Assembly (NCBI GenBank): GCA_018653365.1
Contig: JABIAG010000001.1
Location: 570,586 to 634,585, forward strand
Origin: Candidatus Woesearchaeota archaeon
GTDB lineage: Archaea; Nanobdellota; Nanobdellia; Woesearchaeales; JABIAG01
DNA length: 64,000 bases
Direction of reading: 5' to 3'
The translations under genes and the position numbers were made by a program. The notes beneath the pieces are model-generated. The model saw only the letters and a program-made list of their open reading frames with translations, did not search any database and was not told where the DNA came from. Positions 45,497 through 50,267 of this stretch are shown here, piece by piece. How positions within the stretch are numbered: position 1 is the stretch's first letter; each line of letters begins with the position of its first letter.

Positions 45497-45646
45497 ATGA
45501 CTCGATATACCATCACAAAAAAGATAGCAAAACACGGAAACCAGGCAATAATTGTTATTCCGCGAATTCTTGAAAAGAGATTAAAACCAGGCACTATTGC
45601 ACAGCTAACTATTGACGTTCTGGAGGAGGCTGAAAGTGAGTCTTGA
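45497..45646 (+). CDS. AbrB/MazE-type small DNA-binding protein, 49 aa
   Basis: It reads MTRYTITKKIAKHGNQAIIVIPRILEKRLKPGTIAQLTIDVLEE..., the swapped-hairpin AbrB fold (KKIAKHGNQAIIVIPRILE...PG). It is short enough to be only the DNA-binding dimer unit. It ends 11 nt inside the following kinase gene, so the two are translationally coupled. The 11-bp palindrome upstream is the likely operator. A toxin-antitoxin role is possible in form, but the partner is a large membrane kinase rather than a small toxin. Confidence 0.78.
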   Translation: MTRYTITKKIAKHGNQAIIVIPRILEKRLKPGTIAQLTIDVLEEAESES

Positions 45647-47354
45647 AGGAATAATTGATTCTGACAGGTACGAACTAGTCGAACTTGTAGGAAGAGAAAC
45701 CTGGGGAAAAGTATACCGAACAAGAGATCGATTTCTTGACAAAGAAGTTGCAATAAAGTTAATTGACCCCACAGAAAGAGCTCGGCAACAAATGGCCAGA
45801 TGGGATCTTACACTAAAAGATGCCATAATGAAAGAGGCAGAAGAACTAATGGCCTGCTCAAACGTTGTACCAAGAAAGTACGATGAAGATAAAAACGGAC
45901 AAGGATTCATAGTAATGCCATTCTATAAAACATTCTTTAATGAAGTTCTCGATAGTGTCATAAAAAGAAAAGAAGGCGAGGGAAGTGGACAACCTGGAGA
46001 ATTCTTACCAGAAACATTATTCAGTTCAGGATTACATATAGAAGAAATAATTCAATACACCCGCGATGTTGCCAAAGGAATAGCGGAAGTAAACAATGCC
46101 CTTGGCCGAGCACACTGCGACATCAAACCAGATAACATAGCAATAGGGCCAGATGGAAGATTGTTATTGAATGATTTAGGAACTGCAACATACTTATCAA
46201 TAGCTGCAGGAGATGACTCAGTAAGAGACAACAGAGGGTGCTTGTACACCAGAAGCCCATTAATGTTTAAGAAAGGATATGATCCAACAAAAAAAGAAGA
46301 TGCGTTTTCTTTAGCAAGCCTAATGTTCAAAATGTTTACTGGCAAGTACATATTTGAAGATGAAATAAATGAAGCCTTAGCAAAAGGGGGCGAGGATGCA
46401 GTAAGAGAATACATGTTAGAGATGACATATTCAGGACCTTATTTGAACCAACGATTCAGCGAAAGAGCACAAGACAAAGTAAAAAATTCTGAAGTACCAA
46501 AAGAATTTCAAGAATTTCTATTAAATTCACTCAATGGACACTACTGGGCAATCCCCAGCATTTCAGGATTACAAACCCACGTACCAACCACACAAGACAT
46601 GTTAGAACAATCTGTAACACTTTATAGAAATAATCGAGCAAAAGATAAAGCATACAAACAACTTAAAAAAGAGTTAGGAAAAAAAGCGAGATCTTCATTC
46701 TTAACAGGAGCAGGCGCAACAACATTCTTGTTGGGAACAATCTGGGGAATATTCTTACTCCCAAAAGTGGACTACACTGAAAGACAAGATTACGAAGCCA
46801 ACATGCTACTCAAACCAGCAGAAATAAGCAACATATCATTTGAGATAGAAAGACCTGCACGAAGCAATTGGACATTACCAAAAGATCAAGATTATAGTGG
46901 ACTACTTGCATCTTTCCGAAAGAACTCTAAAGGAACAGTCACAGACAGAATTGTGCTAGCATACATTCAAACTCTTCAAGAATTAGGACATCATAATTCC
47001 AAAGGAGCTGATATGTACATGAGGTATGCAAAATTAAGATATCAACATGCAACAGGACCAAGACCAATACTTGATGAACAATTAAGAGTATTACTTCCCC
47101 ATTATGGAAATTTCACCAGAATAGACGAAAGAGTAATTGATCTTGAAGACTGTCTAGCAACAACCTATTTAGGGATTAGAAAAGTACGAGATGCGCAAAA
47201 AGCTGCAAATGATACTGACTACCACACATATATCCAATCCCGAGATCGAGCTGGAAACTTAGTCATTAACAGGGGTGAAAGATTATTCTTAGACAGATGG
47301 ACAAGAAACTCTAAACTTCTTCTTCCCCATAGAGTTTGCTTAAAACAGAACTAG
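45636..47354 (+). CDS. Membrane Ser/Thr protein kinase, 572 aa
   Basis: A eukaryotic-like kinase domain (about 10-300). The Gly loop is LVGRETWGKVY at 17-27, the ATP-binding lysine is in VAIK (K41), and the catalytic loop is HCDIKPDN at 160-167. NDLG replaces the usual DFG, and the activation region carries a Ser/Thr-Pro-like TRSPLMF. A single membrane helix lies near 356-376 (TTFLLGTIWGIFLLP), with a C-terminal sensor-like region outside. The GTG start at 45636 is chosen because GGAGGAGG lies 6-7 nt upstream. It is coupled to the AbrB gene. Confidence 0.85.
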   Translation: MSLEGIIDSDRYELVELVGRETWGKVYRTRDRFLDKEVAIKLIDPTERARQQMARWDLTLKDAIMKEAEELMACSNVVPRKYDEDKNGQGFIVMPFYKTFFNEVLDSVIKRKEGEGSGQPGEFLPETLFSSGLHIEEIIQYTRDVAKGIAEVNNALGRAHCDIKPDNIAIGPDGRLLLNDLGTATYLSIAAGDDSVRDNRGCLYTRSPLMFKKGYDPTKKEDAFSLASLMFKMFTGKYIFEDEINEALAKGGEDAVREYMLEMTYSGPYLNQRFSERAQDKVKNSEVPKEFQEFLLNSLNGHYWAIPSISGLQTHVPTTQDMLEQSVTLYRNNRAKDKAYKQLKKELGKKARSSFLTGAGATTFLLGTIWGIFLLPKVDYTERQDYEANMLLKPAEISNISFEIERPARSNWTLPKDQDYSGLLASFRKNSKGTVTDRIVLAYIQTLQELGHHNSKGADMYMRYAKLRYQHATGPRPILDEQLRVLLPHYGNFTRIDERVIDLEDCLATTYLGIRKVRDAQKAANDTDYHTYIQSRDRAGNLVINRGERLFLDRWTRNSKLLLPHRVCLKQN

Positions 47355-48222
47355 CACCAATCTGAACTAGTCTAAAAAGCTCTCTAATTTGTGAAAGAAT
47401 TAAAGGATCTTTTGTTTGAGAAAAGTATTTCATAACAGAACCTAACTGATACTTTGTTTTAAGATCGTCAATTTGGTATATTGCATCTTTATCATTCTTA
47501 AAGTGTGCATCATAAAACAAACCAAAATAAGATTGTAAATTTTTAATAAACGTTATGATTGTTTTATCGCCACTAAAACCCTCCATTGCAAACTGATACA
47601 GGTAATAATAAGCGTGTTCAATGTGCATCAAAAACTTCAATAATTCCCATTCTAAAAAAGAGTTCTTAAGATATTTTTCTTTGACTAATAACCGTTTACA
47701 AAACAGAACAAACTTGTCTTGTTGTTTTCTTAGTTCAGCAATATCTGCTTCGTGTTTGAAAGAATTCTTTTGAAAATCAGCTATAACCAACTTTTCTGTC
47801 TCTCGAATTATCAAGAAAACTCGCCTAAGTAAAACAGAGTACTTAGTTTCAGAAGGTTCACTAAGATTTTCTAAAGTACAAGAACCTTCAGTAGTTTCAG
47901 TGATCTCAAACCCCAACAAAAGATCTTCAGTAATTTGTTTTATTTCTTTTTGAATTGTTTTAGTGGTTTCTTTAATATGAATGATGTCGAATCCATTACG
48001 ATAAAGGTGAGTAAGAATTGTTTTGATATCTTTTTTATTCTCTTTTGTAATTTCAACAACCTTTTCCTTTCTAACTGGTTTAGAACTGTTAACAATTAAT
48101 GCAGTATTGGCTTCAGATAAATTTACTTTATCTCCCCCAGTCAATCCTTTTTCATCAACCCACTTTTTGGGAAGATAAATAGTGAATCCGCCACCACCCT
48201 GTTTGATGAGTTTTCTGTCCAT
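47311..48222 (-). CDS. AbrB-PhoU type regulator (copy 2)
   Basis: A 303-residue protein with an N-terminal AbrB-like hairpin (MDRKLIKQGGGGFTIYLPKKWVDEKGLTGGDKVNL, about 1-50) and an all-helical PhoU-like body (about 75-300). It has the same build as the gene at 3953-4882 but only distant sequence similarity. It converges on the kinase gene, overlapping by 44 nt. CTTTTTAAATG about 25 nt upstream suggests a leaderless mRNA. The ligand is not predictable. Confidence 0.78.
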   Translation of the reverse strand: MDRKLIKQGGGGFTIYLPKKWVDEKGLTGGDKVNLSEANTALIVNSSKPVRKEKVVEITKENKKDIKTILTHLYRNGFDIIHIKETTKTIQKEIKQITEDLLLGFEITETTEGSCTLENLSEPSETKYSVLLRRVFLIIRETEKLVIADFQKNSFKHEADIAELRKQQDKFVLFCKRLLVKEKYLKNSFLEWELLKFLMHIEHAYYYLYQFAMEGFSGDKTIITFIKNLQSYFGLFYDAHFKNDKDAIYQIDDLKTKYQLGSVMKYFSQTKDPLILSQIRELFRLVQIGASSVLSKLYGEEEV

Positions 48223-48424
48223 AAAGTAAGGAGTTTATGTACATTTAAAAAGATTCCCGATTTTGATATGAATGATATGAATGATAGCAGGTAGATATTA
48301 AACCAAAACTTAGTTCTCGTCTAACATGATACGAAGAATAGCAGTAGCAAAACTAAACGAGATGATGGAAGCATAGACCATAAAAACCAAGAACCTTTAT
48401 TAATTGTTTAAGGGCACCACATGT
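48223..48424. other. 200-nt intergenic region upstream of the sigma-like gene
   Basis: It holds the promoters of the divergent AbrB-PhoU gene and the sigma-like gene, plus a short direct repeat (ATATGAATG twice near 48268-48286). A 16-codon open frame at 48326 lacks a ribosome site. I see no RNA gene. Confidence 0.4.
48394..48403 (+). promoter_or_regulatory. TATA-like box of the sigma-like gene
   Basis: CCTTTATTAAT is centred about 26 nt before the ATG at 48425, matching the leaderless archaeal promoters in the window rather than a bacterial -35/-10 pair. Confidence 0.45.
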
Positions 48425-49510
48425 ATGGAAAGTGATTACTCGAAAAGAGATTCTGTTGGGAGCGTAACGCCCAATGAACTTGCAGATTGGTTAGAACTTG
48501 ATAGAGCATATATTGGAAGAGTTGTAAGACTGGCTAAACTATTGGATCTCTTTCAGGTAAATGACGATTCAACAATCCCACAAAGAGTTGCTGAAAGAAT
48601 AGTTGATGGCAAAATTTACTTTCCCCACAGGGGCGAACGTGAAGCTACAGCAGCAGAATTAAGACTCGAAGTTAGAGCTAGCGAGTGTTGGCAAGAAGCC
48701 GAATCAATACTGTATTCTTTATTTAGAAACACGCACGCACAAGACCCCTCTTCTGAAGATGAATTAGTACTTCTCAGAAGAGCAAGAGAGGGAGATGAAT
48801 ATGCTGCCAGCACTATTGCAGTAGACAATATTGGACTGACAGCTCATTTTGCAGATATTTATGCAAGAACTTTCGGACTGGAAAAAGAAGACCTCATAAT
48901 GGATGGTTATCTTACACTTCGCGAAACAGCAATCAAATTCAGAGAGGAAAGAGGCATACCCTTTGCAGGTTTTGCTTCATTCAGATTAAAACAAGCAGTA
49001 AAGTACATATTAAGACATAAAAAAATAATAACAGAACCCCCTAACTTTTGGAAAAAAATAAGAAGAATACAAGGAACAAGATTCGCAGCAAGAAAATATC
49101 ACGGTATGAAGGCAACCACACAAACAGTTGCAAAACAGGTAGGTATGAAATATTCTACAGTTGTAGGGCTTGAAGCAATAAAACGAATACACCACTTTGA
49201 CGTTGATCACCCTGCTAGCATTAAAGCAGATGACATTGAAGACCCCTTTTATCAAGATGATATAGACTGGGTTCATACAAAAATAGATGCAGAAGCAGCA
49301 AAAGAAGAATTTGCCAAATTAAGTGAAAGAAAACAACATATCCTAACAAAACGATTAGGATTAGACAGAAGTAAACCACAAACTTTAGAACAAGTAAGCG
49401 CAGATTTGGGCATTACCCGAGAAAGAGTAAGACAGTTACAAAATGAGGCACTAAAAACATTAAAAAATAAACTTGAAGAAACTAAATTAGACCAAACAAC
49501 CACACAATAA
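48425..49510 (+). CDS. Bacterial-type sigma-70-like factor (regions 2, 3, 4) in an archaeon
   Basis: A 361-residue protein. Residues 15-65 form a helix-turn-helix-like N-terminal part. Residues 113-198 read as sigma region 2: LLRRAREGDEYA..., then KEDLIMDGYLTLRETAIKF (2.2-like) and GIPFAGFASFRLKQAVKYILRHK, where bacterial factors have FSTYATWWIRQAI. Residues 208-258 resemble region 3. Residues 295-348 are a near-canonical region 4: LSERKQHILTKRLGLD, then TLEQVSADLGITRERVRQLQNEALKTLK. No zinc ribbon or cyclin fold of TFB is present. The ATG is set by a TATA box; an upstream TTG at 48404 is less likely. Whether it binds archaeal RNAP is unknown. Confidence 0.85.
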   Translation: MESDYSKRDSVGSVTPNELADWLELDRAYIGRVVRLAKLLDLFQVNDDSTIPQRVAERIVDGKIYFPHRGEREATAAELRLEVRASECWQEAESILYSLFRNTHAQDPSSEDELVLLRRAREGDEYAASTIAVDNIGLTAHFADIYARTFGLEKEDLIMDGYLTLRETAIKFREERGIPFAGFASFRLKQAVKYILRHKKIITEPPNFWKKIRRIQGTRFAARKYHGMKATTQTVAKQVGMKYSTVVGLEAIKRIHHFDVDHPASIKADDIEDPFYQDDIDWVHTKIDAEAAKEEFAKLSERKQHILTKRLGLDRSKPQTLEQVSADLGITRERVRQLQNEALKTLKNKLEETKLDQTTTQ

Positions 49511-50267
49511 CAAGAATAGCTAGATTAATCCACAAACCCTTGCGCATTTTCTTTTTGTTTTCTGAAGACACAAAAAATACAATTAACAAAATAGCTAAGT
49601 ATCCTCCCAAATGAGCAAAATGATTTATGTTCGTTGCAGCAGGAATTAATATTCCAGTAATATCAGCTAAAATTGCGAGCCAACCAACAAGAAATAAGGG
49701 AAGAGGAATTCCACCAACAATGTAAGTAATGTAAAATGGTTTAAGAAGAATTCCAGTTACTATCAAACCCGCAATTGCGCCTGACGCTCCAATTCCACCA
49801 AAACCCATCACAGCAGATAAAACATCAGCTATGACTGCAGCAGCAAAATAAACATAGAGCATTCTAGCCCCAAACTCTTTTTCAACCACCCTGCCAAAAA
49901 TGAAAAGAAACAACATATTACCCAACAGATGTAAAACTCCAGCATGCAAAAACCAAGAAGCAATAATTGGAATTGGTTGAAAAGTCCATAAGTGTTGAGG
50001 TTGAAAAATAAATTGATTAATAGCATCAGGATTCAACGTAATTAGAATAACCTCAATTATGAAGATAATTAAGTTAGCAATAATAAGATAAAACGTTGCT
50101 TTAGCCTCATAAATGAAAACAAAAAATTGTTTGAGGGGTTTGACCAAGTCTGAAGCAGTACGCTTTTTAGCCAAAACCTGAATGATTAAAACAGGAAGCG
50201 AAATAATGAAAAAAATAGTTTGCCAAACAAAACGAGACTCAGAACGGATTTCTTTTTCAGACTTCAT
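49482..50267 (-). CDS. Rhomboid-family intramembrane serine protease
   Basis: A 261-residue protein with a cytoplasmic head, then about six membrane helices. It has the rhomboid catalytic pair: GIGASGAIAG (S162) and NHFAHLGGYL (H219). The HLLGNMLFLFIFGRVVE segment of helix 2 is also typical. Rhomboids cut single-pass membrane proteins within the bilayer. The gene converges on the sigma-like gene (29-nt overlap) and starts in a 4-nt overlap with the upstream nucleotidyltransferase. A role in releasing a membrane-tethered regulator is only a hypothesis. Confidence 0.85.
   Translation of the reverse strand: MKSEKEIRSESRFVWQTIFFIISLPVLIIQVLAKKRTASDLVKPLKQFFVFIYEAKATFYLIIANLIIFIIEVILITLNPDAINQFIFQPQHLWTFQPIPIIASWFLHAGVLHLLGNMLFLFIFGRVVEKEFGARMLYVYFAAAVIADVLSAVMGFGGIGASGAIAGLIVTGILLKPFYITYIVGGIPLPLFLVGWLAILADITGILIPAATNINHFAHLGGYLAILLIVFFVSSENKKKMRKGLWINLAILVIVWLFGLI

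Follow-up and report, generated by a model that had tools for sequence, protein, structure and literature searches.

A strongly diverged sigma-70-related protein encoded in a Woesearchaeota chromosome behind an archaeal-type promoter element

The 361-amino-acid protein described here, encoded in a stretch of 64,000 nucleotides of a Woesearchaeota contig (the window, taken at its full length), is a member of the sigma-70 superfamily by descent, as judged from profile matches and a predicted structure. It is a new, strongly diverged orphan variant of a kind of gene already known. We rate the chances as about even that this protein acts as a sigma-derived DNA-binding transcription factor within TBP/TFB transcription, and not as a sigma subunit of the classical kind; its DNA binding, RNA polymerase (RNAP) contact and regulon are putative. 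In the textbook account, TBP and TFB initiate transcription in archaea, which, to our knowledge, have no sigma. The presence of a sigma relative behind an archaeal-type promoter therefore makes it possible to test whether sigma and the TFB system can share one RNAP. The relatives of this gene sharpen the puzzle, because they keep residues that bind bacterial RNAP, yet 19 sigma-bearing genomes contained only an archaeal-type largest subunit. Archaea may have incorporated a bacterial component into transcription machinery regarded as excluding such parts.

The first-pass annotation described sigma factors as known from bacteria and plastids, but the present gene is not without precedent in archaea: sigma-70 genes (fam00359) have been reported in newly reconstructed DPANN genomes, and as especially common in Woesearchaeota (Castelle et al. 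2021, PMC8204110). In the passage of that report concerned with these genes, mis-binning was ruled out, no anti-sigma was found and the mechanism was left open; residues, promoters and RNAP are not among its subjects. The genes it describes resemble ours in belonging to DPANN hosts that also have TBP, TFB and TFE, whereas the window protein is an orphan whose sequence has diverged strongly, whose N-terminus is unique and whose core-binding residues are changed. A literature search covering mainly open-access papers yielded nothing on sigma function in DPANN beyond PMC8204110. This kind of gene is therefore known from the 2021 report, and little studied. The features of the locus, and a second sigma-like gene of the same genome, are as follows.

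48425..49510, + strand: CDS of the 361-aa sigma-70-related protein (profile, fold and sequence searches)
48391..48406, + strand: predicted BRE/TATA-like element of archaeal type, beginning 34 bases 5' of the ATG (score 9.1)
48425..48748, + strand: orphan N-terminal extension, residues 1-108 (low-confidence model, no detected relatives)
48749..49021, + strand: part of sigma region 1.2 and region 2, residues 109-199 (profiles, alignment, fold model)
49040..49189, + strand: region 3-like helices, residues 206-255 (fold model; no Pfam r3 match)
49259..49498, + strand: sigma region 4, residues 279-358 (Pfam r4 at 297-347; fold model)
49415..49435, + strand: −35 recognition helix motif TRERVRQ, residues 331-337 (alignment to E. 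coli RpoD)
47311..48222, − strand: divergent neighbour with a weak AbrB/MazE-like N-terminus (MazE_antitoxin 0.0038, under cut-off)
49482..50267, − strand: convergent neighbour, rhomboid family protein (PF01694, 1.5e-19)
L072:1399-1953 (G000:C1 near 369.7 kb, outside the window): second sigma-like gene, ECF type, 184 aa (Sigma70_r4_2 3.7e-9, over cut-off)

The rhomboid gene overlaps the 3' end of the sigma-related gene by 29 bases. Two genes before the latter, at 45612-47354, lies a gene for a protein kinase-domain protein (PF00069) with a hydrophobic stretch downstream of the kinase domain, as seen by eye.

Profiles and fold agree that the protein is collinear with bacterial sigma-70 from region 1.2 through region 4. 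The NCBIfam RpoS model TIGR02394 matched residues 109-357 (4.4e-30), PHROG_351 matched residues 82-356 (6.7e-32), and the predicted structure gave fold matches to sigma from region 1.2 to region 4, confirming the original description of a bacterial sigma-70-like gene with its regions in order. In Pfam the individual regions scored unevenly: Sigma70_r4 scored over its curated cut-off (43.9 vs 24.1 bits; residues 297-347), Sigma70_r2 remained under its own (18.7 vs 24 bits), and Sigma70_r3 gave no match at the expected place, residues 206-255, where the model shows helices (pLDDT 82-89 at residues 211-250, lower at either end). The NCBIfam scores for the RpoS (105.2 bits, cut-off 378.7) and RpoD (88 bits, cut-off 354) equivalogs were below the respective thresholds. 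In a tree of 57 archaeal sigma sequences, the window protein, E. coli RpoD and 28 thinned database homologs, a sample biased by being drawn from the window protein's own search, the protein formed a long branch with no firm place. Its nearest non-self match was about 32% identical in a word-based search of about 5.8 billion proteins, and no orthologs were found for a purifying-selection test. Residues 1-112 had no relatives but the protein itself at E ≤ 1, and the N-terminal extension, with pLDDT values of 32-56 in ten-residue blocks, matched no Pfam family over cut-off. The sigma-domain match is shared with MzaA of the MZA anti-phage system (NCBIfam 6.5e-25, PADLOC 7.5e-13), but the score of the window protein is 88.1 bits against a cut-off of 800, and no name among the scanned neighbours suggests MZA. 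Pfam gave no TFIIB match for the protein, which sets it apart from archaeal TFB, the functional counterpart of sigma.

The functional residues of sigma have been conserved unevenly. Across regions 2-4 the window protein shares 24% identity with E. coli RpoD, and it retains all five −35 residues at the positions aligned to R584, E585, R586, R588 and Q589, which we take to act in −35 recognition. Only one of the eight residues of region 2.1/2.2 presumed, from the E. coli literature, to bind core RNAP is as in RpoD, and one of the six melting residues; D403 is kept, Asp takes the place of E407, and Phe occupies positions 427, 430 and 433. Eleven archaeal relatives of like divergence averaged 0.58 for the −35 set, 0.55 for the core set and 0.47 for the melting set, so the window protein is skewed toward DNA reading. 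The core-binding positions were matched at 6/8 in RpoS, 7/8 in RpoH and 2/8 in FliA (two positions unaligned), those of RpoE not being alignable by the same route. With the group 1-2 sigmas RpoS and RpoD, the window protein shares the region order 1.2-2-3-4 and the full −35 set; it differs from them in the residues for core binding (1/8) and melting (1/6), in its identity to RpoD and in its scores under the equivalog cut-offs. FliA (sigma-28) is similar in its low identity to RpoD in regions 2.2-2.4, with 3/6 melting residues, and differs in having only 2/5 of the −35 set. The low region 2 identity to RpoD cannot, therefore, exclude core binding. The case for altered function was originally made from region 2.3 compared with sigma-A; the argument stands, on the basis of the core-binding residues, but that comparison alone is weak, since FliA also differs there. 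The core-binding change is the better argument, and core binding may still occur.

The gene is resident in the archaeal chromosome, as first proposed, and contamination is unlikely, given that its 762-kb contig (C1) also bears the genes for RNAP A' (204 kb) and TFB (514 kb), its codon usage is native, with a score above that of 46 of the 60 window genes, and its TATA/BRE-like element is in register. The host genome is a three-contig draft of 1.09 Mb (contamination 0.24), with a single RNAP largest-subunit match and two TFB genes, one of which is that on C1. The TATA-type archaeal promoter also noted at first sight was recovered as a predicted element with a BRE/TATA weight matrix trained on 38 leader genes elsewhere in the window, the sigma-related gene being excluded from training. 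The commonest start positions for this matrix were −36 to −34 from the start codon (15/38), with a mode of −35; the element of the sigma-related gene, at −34, is within one base of this mode, and its score of 9.1 is reached by 0.05% of window positions (P ~0.0024 for five positions). A strong TATA/BRE-like element, at −36, also precedes the ECF-type gene. For the relatives, the scan excluded operon-internal genes, accepted a start codon at any of the first 25 codons and applied a score threshold of 7 of our own choosing. An in-register site preceded 18 of 39 sigma genes, and five other registers gave 1 to 3 of the 39; the same matrix gave 88 of 247 other genes in register vs 8 to 25 in other registers, one of the initial 248 having no upstream sequence.

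Genes of the same kind were present in many related archaeal genomes, which supports the initial reading. A match to the Pfam region 2 family was present in 133 of the order's 337 genomes, including 79 of the 180 good genomes, and in 127 of 371 sampled from the phylum; these counts overlap because 80 of the 127 belong to the same order, the other 47 belonging to other orders of the class. Control genomes gave 0/4 matches for archaea and 10/10 for bacteria. The distribution by family ranged from 39/47 (f51) to 0/11 (f21), and the f51 value suggests that sigma was probably retained over a long time in that family. TFB was found at similar rates in sigma-bearing (120/133) and other (178/204) genomes of the order, so sigma does not replace TFB. 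In many of the relatives' sigmas, regions 1.2 and 2 are separated by a long insert, and some genomes have two or three tandem copies. Two of the loci examined adjoin ribosomal protein genes of archaeal type (S13, S4 and S11 in L088; L11 in L083), the archaeal-type model scoring highest for each. S13 and L11 were over a cut-off, S4 was over the archaeal TIGR cut-off and S11 was just under it; the type was read from TIGR names for S4, S11 and S13, and the PRK ribosomal protein models are presumably archaeal in type. In a contig search with f51 sigmas, the 80 loci listed of 586 bore bacterial names, with no archaeal name seen among them, and were mostly 43-49% identical. When a single f51 sigma was searched against proteins, the best 120 of 7999 matches began with three proteins at 52-54%, followed by RpoD-type proteins, several of which bore the names of Desulfobacterota-like bacteria and some of which were 35-37% identical over 96% of the query.

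The main rival to a regulatory role is a true alternative sigma, region 2 of which would dock on the archaeal A' clamp coiled-coil, with promoters of its own beside TBP/TFB, a reading we consider somewhat unlikely. It would account for the complete 1.2-2-3-4 order and predicted fold, for the occurrence of region 2 in 39 of the 47 f51 genomes and for the conservation of core-binding residues in the relatives. These residues were counted in 57 archaeal sequences, one truncated sequence of 58 and the window sequences being excluded (D403 kept in 52/57, E407 in 49/57, N409 in 47/57 and Q406 in 44/57). At equal divergence from RpoD, core-binding identity was 0.76 in both archaeal (21 sequences) and database (23) homologs, and 0.78 in both (15 and 5 sequences) in a second divergence bin; the archaeal sequences were from the highest-scoring loci, weak or partial sigma genes being under-represented. 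This suggests that the relatives may still hold an RNAP, and a single largest-subunit match was obtained in each of 19 sigma-bearing genomes (of the 133) and 10 sigma-free genomes, a thirtieth, sigma-free genome (G045) having none. However, the window protein itself retains one of the eight core residues, TFB is retained about as often with sigma as without, and the A' clamp coil hardly differs between sigma-bearing and sigma-free genomes. With the E. coli beta' numbering verified, the position of R275 is isoleucine in 29/29 genomes and that of E295 is leucine in 28/29 (phenylalanine in G019), as they are in the host genome, and arginine is retained at the R278 position; we assume the functional roles of these three beta' positions. 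An RNAP clamp adapted to sigma was rejected on the basis of this comparison. It is, in our judgement, rather doubtful that a second, sigma-based layer of promoter recognition operates on archaeal RNAP beside TBP/TFB in many lineages within a single archaeal order, with the window gene among the most diverged branches.

The reading as a sigma-derived DNA-binding transcription factor would involve the following steps. An ancestor would have acquired a bacterial sigma gene, which would then have come under an archaeal TATA/BRE promoter, as predicted from sequence. Region 4, with its recognition helix unchanged, would bind a TTGAC-like DNA element, and the fold of region 2 is predicted to persist, although the residues that serve in bacteria to hold the beta' clamp and melt the −10 element have mostly been replaced. 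The protein might then bind near promoters and either assist or hinder the archaeal RNAP, forming no bacterial-style holoenzyme, and its orphan 108-residue N-terminus may carry a specific input or partner contact. Sigma-type sites were not enriched in the 30 intergenic segments of the window (observed/expected: TTGAC[AT] 3/6.9, TATAAT 4/12.3, pairs 0/1.1), and there was no excess of promoter-like sites around the gene at 45-54 kb (31 vs 27.8 expected). TATAAT was rarer in the window's intergenic DNA than in shuffles, a deficit possibly due to a different form of the archaeal TATA element.

It is improbable that the gene is a recently acquired or decaying passenger with no stable role, as its orphan status, the lack of orthologs found and the changed region 2 residues might indicate; the frame of 361 codons is intact, codon usage is native, the −35 residues are kept at 5/5 behind a TATA/BRE-like element in register, and the genome contains the ECF-type gene with such an element of its own. 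That the protein is an effector aimed at the RNAP of bacteria on which the archaeon preys or with which it is partnered appears very improbable. Such an effector would fit the bacterial core-binding residues kept by the relatives in the absence of a bacterial-type largest subunit from 19 sigma-bearing genomes, and the divergence of tandem sigmas (53-70%) relative to neighbouring genes (83% and 99%) in two genomes of one genus. Against it, most core residues are gone from the window protein, a simple hydropathy window revealed no membrane segment in the sigma proteins examined, and the host genome has no lytic transglycosylase match. Genes for such enzymes occurred in 79/133 sigma-bearing and 102/204 other genomes (Fisher P 0.095), and a link to murein-degrading SLT genes was rejected as not significant. 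An assembly or binning artefact that placed a bacterial gene on a chimera, conceivable in a three-contig draft, is scarcely credible given the A' and TFB genes on the same contig, the archaeal promoter-like element in register and the like genes in relatives with few contigs (one in G010, three in G019) or next to archaeal-type ribosomal protein genes.

The early suggestion that the gene might serve a virus found no support, and a viral or mobile origin was rejected: the window showed no tRNA or Rfam feature, a search of viral contigs, reaching close relatives only, found none for the window protein, and the matches in a phage collection (20 of 30 considered) were sigma-like stretches only 25-28% identical, those annotated being RpoD, RpoS or RpoH.

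Several arrangements around the relatives' genes were also observed. Between the tandem arrays of G169 and G170 (L074, L075, L076), putative counterpart sigmas were 53-70% identical and two neighbouring genes 83% and 99%; against G171, six gene comparisons gave 73-92% and the sigmas 31-44%. The sigma proteins of these arrays diverge fast. In f51, a protein encoded directly before one to three sigma genes (L074:1817-6994, L075:86-5275, L076:9181-11299, L078:4689-8073) has two hydrophobic segments, the first signal-peptide-like by eye, and a DUF7343 C-terminus in the one scanned (L074); it is a possible membrane regulator. A GHKL-type ATPase gene (HATPase_c_3) adjoins a sigma gene in two families (L079:8065-10446, L093:2320-4359), and some bacterial anti-sigma kinases have a GHKL-type fold. 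Finally, a 1550-aa archaeal ORF (L090:3696-8348) combines three region 2 stretches with regions 1.2, 3 and 4 and HTH matches.
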